Source: Myxococcota bacterium (lineage in GTDB: Bacteria; Myxococcota_A; UBA9160; UBA4427). Taken from it: a stretch of 45,318 nucleotides of DNA. Of this stretch, positions 18,240 through 25,017 are shown piece by piece; position 1 is the first letter of the stretch, and each line of letters opens with the position of its first letter. Below the pieces are notes generated by a model that worked only from the letters and a program-made list of their open reading frames with translations, was not told where the DNA came from and did not search any database. The DNA lies in assembly GCA_029268645.1 (NCBI GenBank), contig JAQWNI010000277.1:1-45318 (forward strand), written 5' to 3'. Position numbers and translations under genes: made by a program.

Positions 18240-18317
18240 GCCCCAGCGGATCGCTCTTGCGCTGAGACGGAAAAGGGGCGCTTCTCGGTCGATCGATTTC
18301 GGTTGAGGATCAAGATC

Positions 18318-19658
18318 GTGTCGGCGCATTCCGATGAAGTGTTTGTGGAATGGACCCTTTCGACCAAATTCGCAGTTTCCTCATTTTGTGTCGCCGCGGT
18401 CGCTGGCTTTGCCCCTGAGTTCGCGCGCGAGGCCGGGCTTATTCTCACGCCGCTCGGATCTTGGGTTCTGTCGATTGGGGCCGGTGGCGCTCTGGGTGTG
18501 ATGTTTGCGCGTCGTGTTGGCATCCGTTCAAAGCAGTTTCAGACAGAAGTGTTACGGGCTTCGGTCGGAGAGAGTTCCTGGCCTTCTGAAACAGAACAGG
18601 ACGCCAACCGTTTCCGCCTGCGGGATGAAACGGACAGCCTTTTGACGATCTTGGGCGGCGGTTCCGCCCAGCTTTCTCGTTTGACCGAAGGAATAGATCG
18701 AAAGGCCAACTCGGTGGCGTCGGAGTCCGACGGACTCATCCACGCGATTCAGCCTCTGCGGGACGGGACGCGCGGCATTGTGGATACAGTGGATGAACTG
18801 GAGACAGGCATTCAGCGTCAGCATGCACTCATTGCGAACTCCAAGGGAAAAATTCAAGACATGTCCTCGGAGATGGATCGCAATGCTGATCGGGCTCGAG
18901 AAGCCTTTGGGTTTGCGGCGGAGGCCAACCAGACAGCCGGAACCGGAGTAGAGGTTGCGAAACTCGCGGTCGAAAAAATGCGGCACGTTTTTGAGGGAGT
19001 CGAGCAGACGGGTGCCAAAGTCTTTGCCCTTGAGGCGAAGACCCGACACGTTCATCAGATCACGGAAATGATCACCGATGTCGCGCACCGAACCAACCTG
19101 CTTTCTTTGAACGCTTCAATTGAGGCTGCCCGGGCTGGCGAGGCGGGTCGTGGTTTTTCAGTCGTGGCCGATGAAATCCGAAAGCTCTCCGATAGCGCCG
19201 GTCGAAGCGCCGAGCAAATTAAATCCTTGATTCATGAAATTCAATCCGACACTGATTTGGTCGCGGACGAGATGCGGCAGTCCAGTCGAGACATCGGTGA
19301 AGGAAGGGAAGATATCAATACTCTGGTCGAGTCTCTGGAGACCATCGGACGTGCGGTGGGTGCAGCCGCTCTTCGCGCCGAAGAAATCTTTCATGGTGCG
19401 GACGGACGCTTGAAACATGCTGAGGCGATGGTGGATTCGATGAGCCAAATCGCCAGCGGAGTCGACAGCACCGGGTCCCAAATCCATCAAATGGCAAAGG
19501 CCGCTGAAGCTGATCTTGTCTGCGTCGACGATCTGGCCGGTCAGGCCGAAGCGCTCGGTCGCTTGGCCGGTGAATTGCACCATACGGTGGATGCTCTTCG
19601 AAGACGTCGCGCAGAAGATTCTGATGAGGCGCGGGCGCCGGCGTTGGGGACCTGCTGA
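18318..19658 (+). CDS. Methyl-accepting chemotaxis protein, short N-terminus
   Basis: The 446-residue chemoreceptor has two closely spaced hydrophobic segments (about residues 15-32 and 38-60) and almost no periplasmic loop, so it probably senses in the membrane or cytoplasm. No HAMP domain is obvious. The signalling tip is classical: [20 protein letters not shown] followed by [19 protein letters not shown]. No CheR-binding pentapeptide at the C-terminus. I prefer GTG 18318 with GAGGA 8 nt upstream over TTG 18303. Its stop overlaps the cheW start (TGATG), so the two are translationally coupled. Confidence 0.93.
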
Positions 19659-20158
19659 TGGGGCCTGCTGACGAGGAAATTCACAGCGAAAGGCAGTGGT
19701 TGGCCTTCGAGATCAATCGTACTCGTTATGCGTTGCCCATTGATTCGATCCTTGAGATTGAAGAGCCCGGCCGGGAAGCTCGGTGCATCCCGGGTGTATC
19801 GATGGGAATGGTTGCCGTCGTGAACTGGCATGGCTCGGCACTTCCGGTCGTGGCCAGCGATCTGCTCGTCGCGTCGGAAAGCGAATGGGCGACTTTTGAG
19901 GCTACGACGCTACCCGACATTCCGACGCGTTGGTCAGAGGCGCACGTCCTTGTCCTTTCAGAGCGAGACGATGAGATGCCCCGGCTCGGATTGCCCGTCG
20001 ATCGCGTGTTGGGCCTTCTTGACGCGTCTCCGATTGACTGCGCACAGGACCGCTTCGATCAGGGGTCCTATGGAGACGGTGAGGTGGCCCCCCTCGGCCT
20101 CTGCCCCAACGAACTTTGGAATCGTGCGACCCGGCTGGTCGAACGAGCTTGTGCATAA
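19658..20158 (+). CDS. cheW: CheW-like coupling protein
   Basis: The 166-residue protein has a CheW/SH3-like domain: QWLAFEINRTRYALPIDSIL (ligand strand), PGVSMGMVAVVNWHGSALPV (the family signature region, normally VxGxINxRGxxxPV) and LGLPVDRVLGLL. The Arg of the usual N-x-RG is replaced by a W-H-G version. Links receptors to CheA; lies between mcp and cheY/cheA in one operon. Confidence 0.87.
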   Translation: MGPADEEIHSERQWLAFEINRTRYALPIDSILEIEEPGREARCIPGVSMGMVAVVNWHGSALPVVASDLLVASESEWATFEATTLPDIPTRWSEAHVLVLSERDDEMPRLGLPVDRVLGLLDASPIDCAQDRFDQGSYGDGEVAPLGLCPNELWNRATRLVERACA

Positions 20159-20227
20159 ACCATGAGACGGGATAGCTGTGAAATCGATCCCCGTCGGCCG
20201 CAGGGCCATACTTATCGGGAGAAACCC

Positions 20228-20596
20228 ATGGCGACAGTCTTGATTGCTGATGACGCTTCATTTATGCGTCAAATGATACGCGAAATTATCGAACCTGAGG
20301 GTTATGAAGTGGTCAGCGAGGCTAACAATGGTGTCGAAGCCGTTGAGCGTTTTGAGGAGTTCTCGCCAGACATCGTGACGATGGACATCGTGATGCCGAA
20401 ACAATCTGGGATCGACGCAGTAAAGGATATTTTGTTTCGGTATCCGGCCGCACGCATTGTGATGTGCAGTGCACTCGGCCAGGAAACTCTGGTGATGGAA
20501 TCACTGGAGGCAGGCGCGATGGACTTTATCGTCAAGCCCTTCAAGCCGGAAAGTGTCCTTGGCACTCTCGAGAAAATCCTCGAAAAGGAAATCTGA
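20228..20596 (+). CDS. cheY: CheY-type single-domain response regulator
   Basis: The 122-residue receiver domain alone has the acid pocket Asp8-Asp9, phosphoacceptor Asp53 (VTMDIVMP), switch Ser81 (VMCSA) and Lys103 (IVKPF). It closely resembles CheY of the TM0700/Bacillus type that pairs with CheC/CheX phosphatases, and a CheC-like gene is two genes downstream. ATG 20228 has GGGAG 6 nt upstream; the longer track start 20162 overlaps the end of cheW and adds non-family residues. Confidence 0.93.
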   Translation: MATVLIADDASFMRQMIREIIEPEGYEVVSEANNGVEAVERFEEFSPDIVTMDIVMPKQSGIDAVKDILFRYPAARIVMCSALGQETLVMESLEAGAMDFIVKPFKPESVLGTLEKILEKEI

Positions 20597-20600
20597 AACT

Positions 20601-21044
20601 TTGTCCTTGGATCGGGCCAAGTACGAAAGACTCTTCTTGGAAGAGACTTCCGAGTACCTTGCCGAAATGAGTCAGTCTCTCTTGTCTCTCGAGAAAGATG
20701 ACGCCTTCGTCGAGTCGGTCGATACGATTTTCCGGCTCGCCCATTCGATTAAATCCATGGCGGCTTCCGTGGGCCAGGACGACATCGCGATTTTTGCGCA
20801 TGGTCTTGAGGATCGGATGCAGGCGATCCGGACTCGAGGCTCACTCTCGGATTCGGGAGAGTTATCGCTGCTTTTCCGGGCGCTCTCCCAGCTTGAGGAG
20901 ATGATTCGATCTGTGCATACAGTGGGGGCAACGGTTTCGCTGGGGTCCGATGTTTTCATGGCCTTGAAGTCAGCGGGGCCGGATGATTCGGAACCCGCTC
21001 ACGCCGGCGCCGGAGCGCATGCTCCAAAAAAAGCCAGGAGCTAG
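20601..21044 (+). CDS. cheA: CheA N-terminal part: Hpt (P1) domain, zero-frame product
   Basis: Zero-frame product of 147 residues. It contains the phosphotransfer domain with phosphoacceptor His48 in RLAHSIKSMAASVG (HSxKxxxxxxG), preceded by LFLEETSEYLAEM and followed by an LEDRMQAIR helix, then a short linker APKKARS and a TAG at 21042. The rest of CheA lies in the -1 frame (next entry). The zero frame crosses an A7 run 10 nt before its stop. Start codon uncertain: TTG 20601 is in frame with AAGGAA upstream and lies 4 nt after cheY; TTG 20607 is an alternative. The track start GTG 20553 lies inside cheY. Confidence 0.85.
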   Translation: MSLDRAKYERLFLEETSEYLAEMSQSLLSLEKDDAFVESVDTIFRLAHSIKSMAASVGQDDIAIFAHGLEDRMQAIRTRGSLSDSGELSLLFRALSQLEEMIRSVHTVGATVSLGSDVFMALKSAGPDDSEPAHAGAGAHAPKKARS

Positions 21045-21068
21045 CCGAGCCGGCGAAGAGAGGCTCGG
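21011..21068 (+). promoter_or_regulatory. Candidate programmed -1 frameshift (or transcriptional slippage) site in cheA
   Basis: The zero-frame codons CCA AAA AAA GCC contain the heptamer A AAA AAA (21026-21032). GGAG at 21012-21015 lies 10 nt upstream, the spacing of the stimulatory SD in dnaX. Downstream, CCGAGCC (21045-21051) pairs perfectly with GGCTCGG (21062-21068) around a 10-nt loop, 12 nt after the heptamer. GGAGC-gcat-GCTCC also forms a hairpin directly before the A7, a feature associated with transcriptional slippage. The -1 frame is open from 20987 through the entire kinase, and the zero frame stops at 21042, so any shift must happen in this 55-nt overlap. An assembly indel in the A7 run is the competing explanation. 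Confidence 0.6.
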
Positions 21069-22261
21069 GGGGGCAAGTTCTGGCTTCGGGCATCGGGTTG
21101 GATGCCCACGCTCTTTCCGCAACGGTGCGAGTCCGAACCGATACTCTGGATCGCTTTTTGGGTGTCGTCGGTGAAGTGATTTTAAGTTCTCGGCAATTGC
21201 GAAGCGCCGCCGTTCAGACGGATTCAACCAGTGCTGTTCAATCAGCTCTGGACAGTCTCGAGCGTCGTATCGCAGAACTTCAACGACGCGCTTTGGAATT
21301 GCGGACGACTCGAATGAGTCGCGTGATGGATCATCTCCCTAGGGCATCGCGGCAGATTGCCGATCGGTTGGGTAAGGAGATAGATGTCCATCTAATGGGC
21401 GAAGAGCTCGAAATTGATCGTTCGATTCTGGACCGGCTGGGGGAGCCTCTGCTTCACCTGGTCCGCAATGCCGTGGATCATGGCCTTGAGGGCGTGGAGG
21501 AACGTCAATCAGCCGGTAAGTCAAGACGGGGTCAATTGGTCATTGAGGCCCGGCGCAAGAAGGAGGCGATCCGGATCGCGGTTCGAGACGATGGGCGCGG
21601 CGTCGATCTAGACAAGGTGAGGGCGCGGGCCATCGAAGCAGGACGGATGCACCCTGACCTGGCCGAAGATTTACCTCCCGAGCAGATCGCTCCTTTCGTT
21701 TTCGAAGCGGGTCTTTCCACTGCCGATCAAATTTCGGAGGTCTCAGGCCGTGGGGTCGGGATGGAAGCCGTCAAGGGGATTACGGAGTCTCTCGGTGGCC
21801 ACGTTGAAATTACGACTGAGCCGGGGCGGGGCACGGAGACCTCCTTGACGGTGCCGATTTCGGCCGCAGTGCAACGCGTGCTTGTGGTCGAGGTGGGCGG
21901 ACAGCGCTTGGCCCTTCCTCTGCACCGAATCGAGAGCGTTATTGAGGTCGACGCGTCCCGGATTGAAGATGCGGGAGGAGAATCGTTTCTGCTGATCGAA
22001 GATGATCCGGTTCTGGTTCTGAATCTCGCCAAGGCAATTCGTATTTCGTCATCCGAGGCTGCGGAAGAGAAAGTTCACCTCGTTCTGACTGACTGGAGAG
22101 GCGAGCGAGTCGCGCTTCGAGTGGATGCCTTCGCGGGTCAACATGAAATTTACGTCAAATCTGTTCCGGAGCTCCTGTCTTCCTTGCGGATGCTTGCGGG
22201 TTTGACTCTTCTCGAGGATGGAAGTCCCGTTTTCCTTCTCGATGTAAATCAGGTGGCTTGA
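21032..22261 (+). CDS. cheA: CheA kinase part: dimerisation, HATPase and CheW-like (P3-P4-P5) domains, -1 frame
   Basis: Read after a -1 slip, this adds 409 residues to the Hpt part, for a 553-residue CheA without a P2 domain. P3 begins RVRTDTLDRFLGVVGE. P4 has the N box HLVRNAVDHGLE, G1 DDGRGVD, the FEAGLSTAD / SGRGVGMEAVK segment and GRGTE. P5 starts QRVLVVEVGGQRLALPLHRI. All ATP-binding elements look intact, which argues against a decaying pseudogene. As an independent gene it would have only TTG 21098 and no SD. Phosphoryl transfer would run from His48 to CheY. Confidence 0.85.
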   Translation, partial: SQELAEPAKRGSGGQVLASGIGLDAHALSATVRVRTDTLDRFLGVVGEVILSSRQLRSAAVQTDSTSAVQSALDSLERRIAELQRRALELRTTRMSRVMDHLPRASRQIADRLGKEIDVHLMGEELEIDRSILDRLGEPLLHLVRNAVDHGLEGVEERQSAGKSRRGQLVIEARRKKEAIRIAVRDDGRGVDLDKVRARAIEAGRMHPDLAEDLPPEQIAPFVFEAGLSTADQISEVSGRGVGMEAVKGITESLGGHVEITTEPGRGTETSLTVPISAAVQRVLVVEVGGQRLALPLHRIESVIEVDASRIEDAGGESFLLIEDDPVLVLNLAKAIRISSSEAAEEKVHLVLTDWRGERVALRVDAFAGQHEIYVKSVPELLSSLRMLAGLTLLEDGSPVFLLDVNQVA

Positions 22262-22262
22262 G

Positions 22263-22835
22263 GTGAGGGTGCGGCGGACCATTGACAACATTGAAAGTCT
22301 TCTCGGATGGGTCGATATGGGCGCGGCTCGAGCTGCTGCGGCATTTTCGAAACTGGCCGGACGCCCCATTGGGCATGAAACTCCGAAAGTCGCCCTCGTC
22401 GATTGCGAGGTTCCGATCTCCGAGGCAGGGGACTGGTCAACAGGGGTATTTTTTAAGTTAGAGGGTTGTCTGGATGCCTGGATCGGAATTCTTTTCCATC
22501 AGGCAGCGAGTGAGGCTGCAGTGCGACAAGTGGTGGGTATTCCACGAGGCGAGCTGAGTCCCCATGTGATCGAATCGGCATTGATGGAAATCGGAAATAT
22601 TCTGGCTTCTCATGTCGCGTCAGCGATCTCCGACGAGGTGGGCGAAAGGCTCTTACCGTCCATTCCGACTCTGGCGATGAATTACGCAGAATCCGAAATG
22701 GCCGCCTTTGCGGCTTTTCAAGCCGACGTCGAACGAATTCGGATTGACTCACGGCTAGCGGACGATTCCGGCCAACTCAGTGGGCTGCTTTCCCTGCTGT
22801 TGGCTCCGGAAAAACGGGGCGTCCTGAAGCCCTGA
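22263..22835 (+). CDS. cheC: CheC/CheX-type CheY-P phosphatase
   Basis: The 190-residue protein contains the CheC/FliY/CheX phosphatase signature [DS]-x3-E-x2-N: SALMEIGN followed by ILASHVASAISDEVG and a proline (LLPSIP), as in CheC. Only one clear copy is visible, although CheC often has two; the N-terminal half may hold a degenerate one. It would dephosphorylate CheY-P for signal termination, replacing CheZ. GTG 22263 starts 1 nt after the cheA stop; GTG 22269 is an alternative. Last gene of the chemotaxis operon; a 144-nt gap with no recognised feature follows. Confidence 0.85.
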   Translation: MRVRRTIDNIESLLGWVDMGAARAAAAFSKLAGRPIGHETPKVALVDCEVPISEAGDWSTGVFFKLEGCLDAWIGILFHQAASEAAVRQVVGIPRGELSPHVIESALMEIGNILASHVASAISDEVGERLLPSIPTLAMNYAESEMAAFAAFQADVERIRIDSRLADDSGQLSGLLSLLLAPEKRGVLKP

Positions 22836-22979: not shown

Positions 22980-23729
22980 ATGGACGACGACCAGATTCGA
23001 AAACTCCTGAAGGCTGTTCAAGACGGTGCGGTTTCGATCGATGCGGCGGTGAAGGATCTCGCTTGCCTGCCTTTTGTCGAGACCGTCGACGCGCGGGTCG
23101 ATACGCATCGAGCGATTCGGCAAGGGATTCCTGAAGTCGTCTTCAGTCAGGGCAAGACCTCTGGACAAATCGTCGAAATCGTAGAGGCCTTACGCGAAGC
23201 CGGTCAGGACGTGTTGATCACTCGGATTCAACCCGATGCGGCGGCGGAAGTTCGAACGGTTGTGCCCGGTGGAACCTATGAGGAGCGGGCTCGGGTTCTC
23301 CATTATGGCCGAAGTGAAGTCGAGATCGTCGGGAAAGGTACCGTCGGCGTGGTCTGTGCCGGAACGGCTGATTTGCCAGTCGCCTCCGAGGCGGCGGTTG
23401 TGGCGGAGCGGTTCGGCAATCGAGTCGAAATACTCAAAGACGTTGGGGTGGCGGGTCTGCATCGCTTGTTGGCCTCGGTTGACGTCCTGCGTGAGGCACG
23501 GGTCTTGATCGTTGTCGCCGGCATGGAGGGGGCTCTGCCCTCTGTCGTGGCCGGATTAGTCGACAAGCCCGTGATCGCGGTTCCGACCAGTGTCGGGTAC
23601 GGCGCCGCCTTGGGTGGCCTGACGGCACTCCTCGGCATGCTGACGAGCTGTGCTTCGAATGTGACCGTTGTGAACATCGATAACGGATTTGGAGCCGCGC
23701 ATGTCGCGACGCTCATCAATCGACTCTAA
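22980..23729 (+). CDS. larB: LarB, nickel-pincer cofactor biosynthesis (NaAD carboxylase/hydrolase)
   Basis: LarB carboxylates nicotinic acid adenine dinucleotide and cleaves it to give the pyridinium dicarboxylate precursor of the NPN cofactor. The 249-residue protein has an N-terminal helical region (AVQDGAVSIDAAVKDLACLP), PEVVFSQGKT, and a PurE-like C-terminal domain with VCAGTADLPVASEA, VVAGMEGALPSVVAGLVDKP and PTSVGYGAALGGLTALLGML, all diagnostic. Overlaps larC by 29 nt, indicating coupled translation. Confidence 0.95.
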   Translation: MDDDQIRKLLKAVQDGAVSIDAAVKDLACLPFVETVDARVDTHRAIRQGIPEVVFSQGKTSGQIVEIVEALREAGQDVLITRIQPDAAAEVRTVVPGGTYEERARVLHYGRSEVEIVGKGTVGVVCAGTADLPVASEAAVVAERFGNRVEILKDVGVAGLHRLLASVDVLREARVLIVVAGMEGALPSVVAGLVDKPVIAVPTSVGYGAALGGLTALLGMLTSCASNVTVVNIDNGFGAAHVATLINRL

Positions 23730-25017
23730 GGCCGGTCAGCGTGTCCTTCACCTGGACGCGTTTTCGGGTATCGCAGGCAACATGTTTGCTGCGGCGCTTC
23801 TCGACCTGGGACTGAAACGAAAAGATCTGACGGAAGATTTAGCGGGGCTCGATGTTCCGCATCGATTGAGAGTGTCCCGGGTTCAACGAGGCGACTTGAC
23901 GGCCCGCTATTTTCGGGTGGAGGTCCCGGGTGGGAGCGGACCTCGGAAGCGGAGTCGTGGAGCCTCGCCCGCCCGTGCCCAGACGAAGGGCGCGTTGCGT
24001 GGAGGAACGGGGGACCACGGGCCGCATGGCCCCCATGCTCATTCGTCGCGTACCCGTGCCTACCCGGACATTGTGCGCCTCTTCGAAAGGTCTCGGTTGC
24101 GGCCCGCGGTTCGGTCCCGCGCGCTGGCCATCTTTGAGGCCTTGGGTCACGCGGAGGCTCGTGTGCACGGCGTCTCTCTGGATGAAGTCCACTTTCATGA
24201 AGTGGGAGCCGCCGATGCCATCGTTGACGTTGCAACCGCCGCGATCGGCTTGGATCGGCTGGGCATTCAGCGGGTGACTTCGTCCCCGGTGGCCCTCGGG
24301 CACGGAACCTTCGAGAGTGCCCACGGTCGGCTTCCGCTTCCGGCACCGGCGACGCTTGAGTTGCTCCGGGGGCAGCCGACAGTGCCCGCTCAGGTGGAGT
24401 GGGAAACAGTAACGCCGACAGGGGCGGCAATTTTGAGAACGATCGTGGACGAGTACACCGCGTTGCCGGCGATGACCATTGAGGGCATTGGGATTGGAGC
24501 CGGAAACGATCGGCCTGGCCCGATGCCCAACGTCTTGAGGGTGATCCTGGGAACCAGTGCGGGGGCCCCTCGGCATGACCGCATTAGCGTCCTTGAAACC
24601 AACCTCGACGATCTTGTGCCGGAGCACTTTGATCACTTGATGGAAAGACTCTTCGAGCAGGGCGCGCTCGATGTTTCGCTACAAAATATCCAGATGAAAA
24701 AGAATCGACCGGGATTTTTGGTGCGGGTGATGGCCCGCCCTTCGGATCGAGATGCACTGGCCCGGGTGCTCTTTGCCGAGTCCACGGCGATCGGGGTGCG
24801 CATTCAAGAGCAGGAGCGACTTGTTCTGGACCGAGAAATTAGGCGGATTCAGACGCCCTACGGCCGGGTTCGCGTGAAGTTTATTCGATCTCTCGACGGA
24901 GTTGTCGAGGTGGCCCCTGAATACGATGACTGTAAACGTGCGGCTCGACGAGCCAAGGAGCCCTTGCCTCAGGTGTTGCGGGCGATCGAGTCCCTGGCGC
25001 GGAGTGAGACCGATTGA
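23701..25017 (+). CDS. larC: LarC, nickel insertion protein for the nickel-pincer cofactor
   Basis: LarC inserts Ni into the pincer precursor using CTP. The 438-residue protein begins with the family signature HLDAFSGIAGNMFAAALLDLG and has a His-rich linker (GDHGPHGPHAHS) and HEVGAADAIVDVATAAIGLD. The C-terminal half has LETNLDDLVPEHFDHLMERL and KKNRPGFLVRVM. In Lactobacillus plantarum LarC needs a programmed frameshift; here it is one uninterrupted frame. ATG 23701 lies inside larB; the track start 23689 adds four residues. LarE and LarA are not in the window. Confidence 0.94.
   Translation: MSRRSSIDSKAGQRVLHLDAFSGIAGNMFAAALLDLGLKRKDLTEDLAGLDVPHRLRVSRVQRGDLTARYFRVEVPGGSGPRKRSRGASPARAQTKGALRGGTGDHGPHGPHAHSSRTRAYPDIVRLFERSRLRPAVRSRALAIFEALGHAEARVHGVSLDEVHFHEVGAADAIVDVATAAIGLDRLGIQRVTSSPVALGHGTFESAHGRLPLPAPATLELLRGQPTVPAQVEWETVTPTGAAILRTIVDEYTALPAMTIEGIGIGAGNDRPGPMPNVLRVILGTSAGAPRHDRISVLETNLDDLVPEHFDHLMERLFEQGALDVSLQNIQMKKNRPGFLVRVMARPSDRDALARVLFAESTAIGVRIQEQERLVLDREIRRIQTPYGRVRVKFIRSLDGVVEVAPEYDDCKRAARRAKEPLPQVLRAIESLARSETD

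Follow-up and report, generated by a model that had tools for sequence, protein, structure and literature searches.

A cheA gene split over two frames at a conserved A run: probable programmed -1 frameshifting in a Myxococcota bacterium

We analysed the 45,318-nt contig JAQWNI010000277.1 (assembly GCA_029268645.1) of a Myxococcota bacterium, hereafter called the window, in which the gene for the chemotaxis histidine kinase CheA is encoded in two overlapping frames. Judged from its sequence and that of its relatives, this cheA is likely decoded by programmed -1 ribosomal frameshifting. The phosphotransfer domain Hpt (P1) is in the zero frame, the kinase part (P3-P4-P5) follows in the -1 frame, and a run of seven A (A7) lies in the overlap. 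The split, the run and its phase are conserved across the class, which consists of uncultured bacteria, and in the lineages with A7 or A8 the run is accompanied by position-specific Shine-Dalgarno (SD)-like and RNA structure signals.

The split gene and its recoding site

The following features were found at the junction of the two open reading frames (ORFs).

20601 to 21044, plus strand: zero-frame ORF with the Hpt domain (P1), 147 aa, ending in TAG (Pfam Hpt PF01627, E 3.4e-12)
20987 to 22261, plus strand: -1-frame ORF with linker, P3 (dimerisation), P4 (ATPase) and P5 (CheW-like) (Pfam H-kinase_dim, HATPase_c, CheW)
21012 to 21015, plus strand: SD-like GGAG, 10 nt 5' of the A run (sequence; anti-SD pairing peak at the same distance at group level)
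21026 to 21032, plus strand: slippery run A_AAA_AAA, exactly 7 A, phased for a -1 slip (sequence)
21042 to 21044, plus strand: zero-frame stop TAG, 9 nt 3' of the run (sequence)
21045 to 21051, plus strand: 5' stem arm CCGAGCC (sequence; predicted fold)
21062 to 21068, plus strand: 3' stem arm GGCTCGG (sequence; predicted fold)

A first-pass annotation, made from the letters of the window, had described an Hpt frame stopping at 21042 and a P3-P4-P5 frame at -1, open from 20987, and both were correct to the base. The other elements that it had named, A AAA AAA with GGAG 10 nt upstream and a perfect 7-bp stem 12 nt downstream, were all found in the sequence as well. The zero frame reads CCA AAA AAA GCC AGG AGC TAG across the site, and the heptamer is of the X_XXY_YYZ type and correctly phased for a tandem -1 slip. 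The CCGAGCC/GGCTCGG stem has seven perfect pairs and begins 12 nt past the run. Folding of positions 21033-21093 gave a predicted -29.1 kcal/mol and kept this stem inside a longer outer helix, which starts at the first base past the run.

Both parts of the gene were recognisable as CheA. The closest solved structures to the zero-frame Hpt were the CheA P1 domains 2ld6 and 1tqg, and the His motif AHSIKS is present, so that the terminated product would be a whole Hpt domain. Its likely start is the TTG at 20601, with an SD-like AAGGA within the end of cheY. In the -1 frame, which stays open to the stop at 22261, H-kinase_dim, HATPase_c and CheW each scored above the Pfam cut-off, and the ORF is related to the CheA structures 3ja6 and 1b3q (E 1e-66). 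The unit thus has an Hpt with a phosphorylatable His, P3, P4 and P5, and adjoins genes for CheW, CheY and a chemoreceptor (MCP), as is characteristic of a CheA histidine kinase. No P2 was recognised between Hpt and P3 of the window CheA, and P1 itself must therefore meet the regulator.

According to the proposed mechanism, ribosomes would translate Hpt and then meet A_AAA_AAA with the SD-like site about 10 nt behind them and stably folded RNA in front of them; part of them would slip back one base at the run. Ribosomes that do not slip would terminate at the TAG three codons on, and their product would be a free Hpt domain of about 147 aa. Those that slip would continue through P3-P4-P5 and make a complete CheA of about 553 aa (both lengths are arithmetic on the coordinates, with the slip taken at the second AAA).

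Conservation of the split and its frame

The P3-P5 sequence was searched in 60 relatives and then in the order (80 genomes), the class (91) and a draw from the phylum (379). At such similarity, 72 genomes of the class had an orthologue, and the 288 phylum genomes from outside the class had none. The Hpt-domain profile was run in all three frames for the typing of the junctions, and 67 of the 72 were readable. The kinase frame was -1 in 52 of these, +1 (or -2) in three and continuous with Hpt in 11, and one junction, which contains N, was odd. The split was spread over two orders of the class. Comparison of relatives for the split and the A run had been proposed with the first-pass annotation, and its outcome favours recoding.

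All 55 out-of-frame genes had a run of A7 to A10 between Hpt and P3 (A7 in 24, A8 in nine, A9 in four and A10 in 18). Ten of the 11 in-frame genes were without any run of A5 or longer, a difference from the split genes with a Fisher p = 5e-11; nearly all the genomes are multi-contig drafts and related rows make such row-wise p-values optimistic, and genus-level tests are given where they were made. As a control, distant CheA genes were inspected, and none of the 79 readable ones among the matches listed, in named genomes, was interrupted before P3. A second CheA paralogue (35% identical) that is found in many of the same genomes was likewise uninterrupted, and most of its open frames were about 640-920 aa long.

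The frame was kept while the run changed. Seven switches between split and in-frame genes were counted on the P3-P5 tree, together with at least 15 changes of run length among the -1 genes, whereas the frame of the run-bearing genes changed only two times. The sister species of the window, G001, whose P3-P5 is 87% identical, has A8 in place of A7, and the -1 relation is preserved via a substitution beside the run. The first -1-frame codon past the run encodes Ser or Thr in 49 of the 52 rows, often in the context S/T-P-E/D-L, and the strongest residue constraint directly past the run is in the -1 frame. The Lys codons of the run are all AAA, whereas the genes otherwise favour AAG (350 AAG vs 63 AAA).

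Some genes of the set deviated from this pattern. G069 (L175) has an in-frame cheA with A10 at the junction, where slippage would give a truncated and not a full product. Three genes of one clade, G042 (L148), G062 (L185) and G063 (L181), need a +1 (or -2) shift at ..CAA AAA AAG GCC TGA. This clade has the strongest SD-like sites and hairpins of the set, with the hairpins beginning about 4-7 nt past the run, and may use frameshifting by -2 or by +1, or else slippage of the polymerase. In five genes of the second order (L198, L200, L202, L205 and L199; f12) the zero frame continues for about 77-87 nt past the run, beyond the start of P3, so that the short product would have a longer out-of-frame tail.

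Stimulators, run length and competing explanations

RNA structure was scanned along the genes in segments of 45 nt, for the A7-A8 rows (n = 33) and the A9-A10 rows (n = 22). The scan had one outlier, the segment beginning at the first base past the run. Its mean z was -1.75 in the A7-A8 rows as compared to -0.13 ± 0.22 in control segments, and nearly all of the 33 rows were more structured past the run than their own controls (Wilcoxon p = 5e-10). In the A9-A10 rows the mean z was -0.75 (controls -0.08 ± 0.25). Pairing with the anti-SD sequence gave a single strong peak, for 9-mers whose starts lie 20-22 nt upstream of the run's end, and this spacing fits the 9-14 nt that PMC5009743 gives for SD-like stimulators of -1 frameshifting. 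The mean best pairing energy of the A7-A8 genes was -7.0 kcal/mol vs -3.5 kcal/mol, reached by none of 20000 null draws, and that of the A9-A10 genes was -3.7 vs -3.0 kcal/mol, which was not significant (1914 of 20000). With genera as units, longer runs went with weaker structure (rho 0.50, p 0.006) and with weaker SD-like pairing (rho 0.53, p 0.004). Of the genera, g10 was sampled best, with nine species, and a stem of 9 bp was kept there in 95% of the cells, with two compensated pairs. Both stimulators were missing in G089/G090 of the second order (f12).

A phased heptamer, an SD-like site, downstream structure at group level and a conserved frame transition were thus found together, as ribosomal -1 frameshifting would predict; the SD-like site is usual in that mechanism though not indispensable. 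The stimulator set of the A7-A8 genes is, by its sequence, that of a -1 frameshifting cassette of the dnaX/IS type. Programmed -1 frameshifting, as first proposed for the window, is accordingly supported by an SD-like site and a structure that are conserved and position-specific in the A7-A8 lineages.

Several observations weigh against this interpretation. The number of A7 runs in the window (7 vs 6.0 expected) is at chance level, and its genome holds some 800 of them. When the window genome was considered alone, the 50 nt past the run were not significantly structured (z = -1.2, p = 0.125). As the site is unremarkable in that genome alone, the comparison with relatives decides. The covariation in the g10 hairpin was modest and was reached by 17 of 500 shuffles. 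The stems that stimulate -1 frameshifting usually stand 5-9 nt from the run, and the gap of 12 nt in the window exceeds this spacing, unless the predicted outer helix forms. An inverted repeat, GGAGC-GCAT-GCTCC, abuts the A7 run at 21012-21025 and is kept in G001 with a G-U pair; it could make the SD-like GGAG inaccessible, or serve as a hairpin on the upstream side. The distance of the stem and the possible masking of GGAG lower the confidence in the ribosomal mode in the window, and not that in recoding.

The strongest alternative is transcriptional slippage, in which RNA polymerase would add one A (or drop two) at the run and part of the messages would encode the full CheA, as in Thermus dnaX. 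A homopolymer of about nine or more, as in that gene, was present in 22 of the 55 split orthologues (A9-A10), a length at which bacterial polymerases slip according to PMC5009743. In these genes the structure is weaker and the SD-like pairing not significant, the genus-level relation of both with run length points the same way, and polymerase slippage reaches the +1-phase clade more easily. However, in 33 split rows, that of the window among them, the run is only A7-A8, which is short for polymerase slippage, and two stimulators specific for the ribosome are kept; moreover, the downstream RNA structure is still untranscribed while the polymerase sits on the run. For the window we therefore consider this explanation unlikely, and infer that the ribosome rather than RNA polymerase slips there and that both predicted products would exist. 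The weak stimulators of the A9-A10 lineages suggest RNA-polymerase slippage in those genes, where the same outcome would probably be reached partly or wholly by that route. The initial proposal is thus refined in that A9-A10 relatives may slip in transcription and that the small clade needs a different shift.

Much less probable is a bipartite CheA, in which Hpt would be a protein of its own and ribosomes would re-initiate in the overlap to make a P3-P4-P5 kinase. In its favour, CheA4 acts in trans on the P1 of CheA3 and phosphorylates it (PMC2817712), and the P3-P5 frame of the window has a TTG at 21098. The candidate starts in the window are only TTG and GTG with weak SDs, and in 12 of the 55 split genes the P3-P5 frame is devoid of ATG, GTG and TTG between the run and P3 (ATG is missing in 45), for which reason internal initiation was rejected. 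Two separate proteins would also leave unexplained the obligate A run, its all-AAA Lys codons and the constraint on the -1 frame past the run.

A homopolymer within a coding region is a classic type of contingency locus, and run-length mutation could switch CheA on and off in a population. Such phase variation predicts mixed frames, but 52 of the 56 readable run-bearing genes are -1 in spite of the changes in length. Under random drift in length, phase switching or errors the genes would be expected in varied frames, yet the frame stayed -1, which excludes phase variation, assembly error and pseudogene; phase variation was rejected on this constancy and is very improbable. A homopolymer error or a decayed gene, for which one might cite that the window genome is a fragmented draft of 284 contigs, has next to no probability, since an A8 misread as A7, named at the outset as a possible refutation, cannot account for 52 orthologues with the same split, varied run lengths, intact Hpt and P3-P5 frames and position-specific RNA signals, and this comparison led us to reject assembly error and pseudogene alike.

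Programmed -1 ribosomal frameshifting hence remains the best explanation for the window. A wider reading, which we put forward tentatively and hold at somewhat below an even chance, is that the class has an obligate two-product cheA. Free Hpt and full CheA would both be under selection, the machinery of slippage would be interchangeable (ribosomal -1 in A7-A8, polymerase in A9-A10, +1/-2 in one clade), and the ratio of Hpt to kinase would be set and possibly regulated.

Related systems, signalling and neighbouring genes

Among known systems, E. coli dnaX resembles the window cheA in its all-A/AAG slippery run, an SD-like site about 10 nt upstream, a stem-loop downstream and two products from one gene. 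It differs in that its run is A_AAA_AAG and not A_AAA_AAA, in that the stem of cheA is further off, and in that its shift gives the short product by early termination, whereas the cheA shift gives the long one. The first description of the site as dnaX-like therefore holds for the type of cassette and not for the product made by the shift. In the IS3-type elements and carboxysome cso2 the shift adds a C-terminal part and a zero-frame stop follows soon past the site, as in cheA, but the genes are different and PMC5009743 reports cso2 without an SD stimulator. Thermus thermophilus dnaX, with an A9-type run and two products, matches the A9-A10 relatives, whereas the window cheA has A7 and ribosomal stimulators. 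For ribosomal and polymerase slippage both serving one gene, dnaX is the known precedent (PMC5009743). The bipartite CheA proteins (PMC10782961; Rhodobacter CheA3/CheA4, PMC2817712) are similar in having Hpt separate from the P3-P4-P5 core, so that phosphorylation in trans is possible, but consist of two genes with their own starts; in the window the two parts overlap as a single unit, and the slippage that joins them can also give a canonical fused CheA.

PMC10782961 reports that Hpt works when liberated and that it can be encoded by a gene other than that of the kinase core. In Rhodobacter, P1 of CheA3 is phosphorylated in trans by CheA4 (PMC2817712). In the same way, a CheA dimer in the window organism would phosphorylate free Hpt in trans, and Hpt would carry the phosphate to CheY. 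The unit thus probably yields an array-bound CheA and a diffusible phosphocarrier for the neighbouring CheY. The product ratio might be set and the flow of phosphate tuned, as the first-pass annotation had also suggested. E. coli cheA has a second product as well, CheA-short, which is made by internal initiation and is without the phosphorylation site; the extra product of the window would be Hpt itself.

Conserved recoding of this kind seems not to have been described before in a chemotaxis kinase. No recoded cheA was found in the open-access literature searched, and neither cheA nor chemotaxis is mentioned in the genome-wide recoding source PMC3711429 or in the first 300,000 characters of a second one, PMC5009743. 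The mechanism is known in kind; what looks new is that a whole class uses it for a signalling kinase and apparently interchanges the modes of slippage. It is rare for recoding in a cellular signalling kinase to be conserved across a whole bacterial class, and the gene offers a natural system with a free phosphotransfer domain and a complete kinase from one message, which makes the long-debated roles of liberated P1 and of CheA stoichiometry in receptor arrays testable. The roughly 15 natural changes of run length provide material for the study of how slippage by the ribosome gives way to slippage by the polymerase and vice versa. Gene callers will break such genes in two, and in surveys they may be listed as 'CheA without Hpt' or as bipartite systems.

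The genes around cheA in the window are as follows.

18303 to 19658, plus strand: chemoreceptor (MCP) (Pfam MCPsignal)
19658 to 20158, plus strand: cheW (Pfam CheW)
20162 to 20596, plus strand: cheY (response regulator), directly 5' of cheA (Pfam Response_reg; kept at 63 orthologous loci)
22263 to 22835, plus strand: CheC-like protein, directly 3' of cheA (Pfam CheC; kept at 65 orthologous loci)

The order cheY-cheA-cheC is conserved, with CheY upstream in 63 rows and the CheC-like gene downstream in 65. FlhA was detected in only 20 of the 80 genomes of the order; it was not found in the window genome and is missing from 60 of the 80 in all. The Che system thus sits for the most part in genomes that have no flagellar export gate, which suggests that its output is often not a flagellum. 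Further downstream, at 22980-25017, lie two overlapping genes, putatively larB and larC. In Lactobacillus plantarum larC needs frameshifting; the putative larC of the window is an uninterrupted single ORF.
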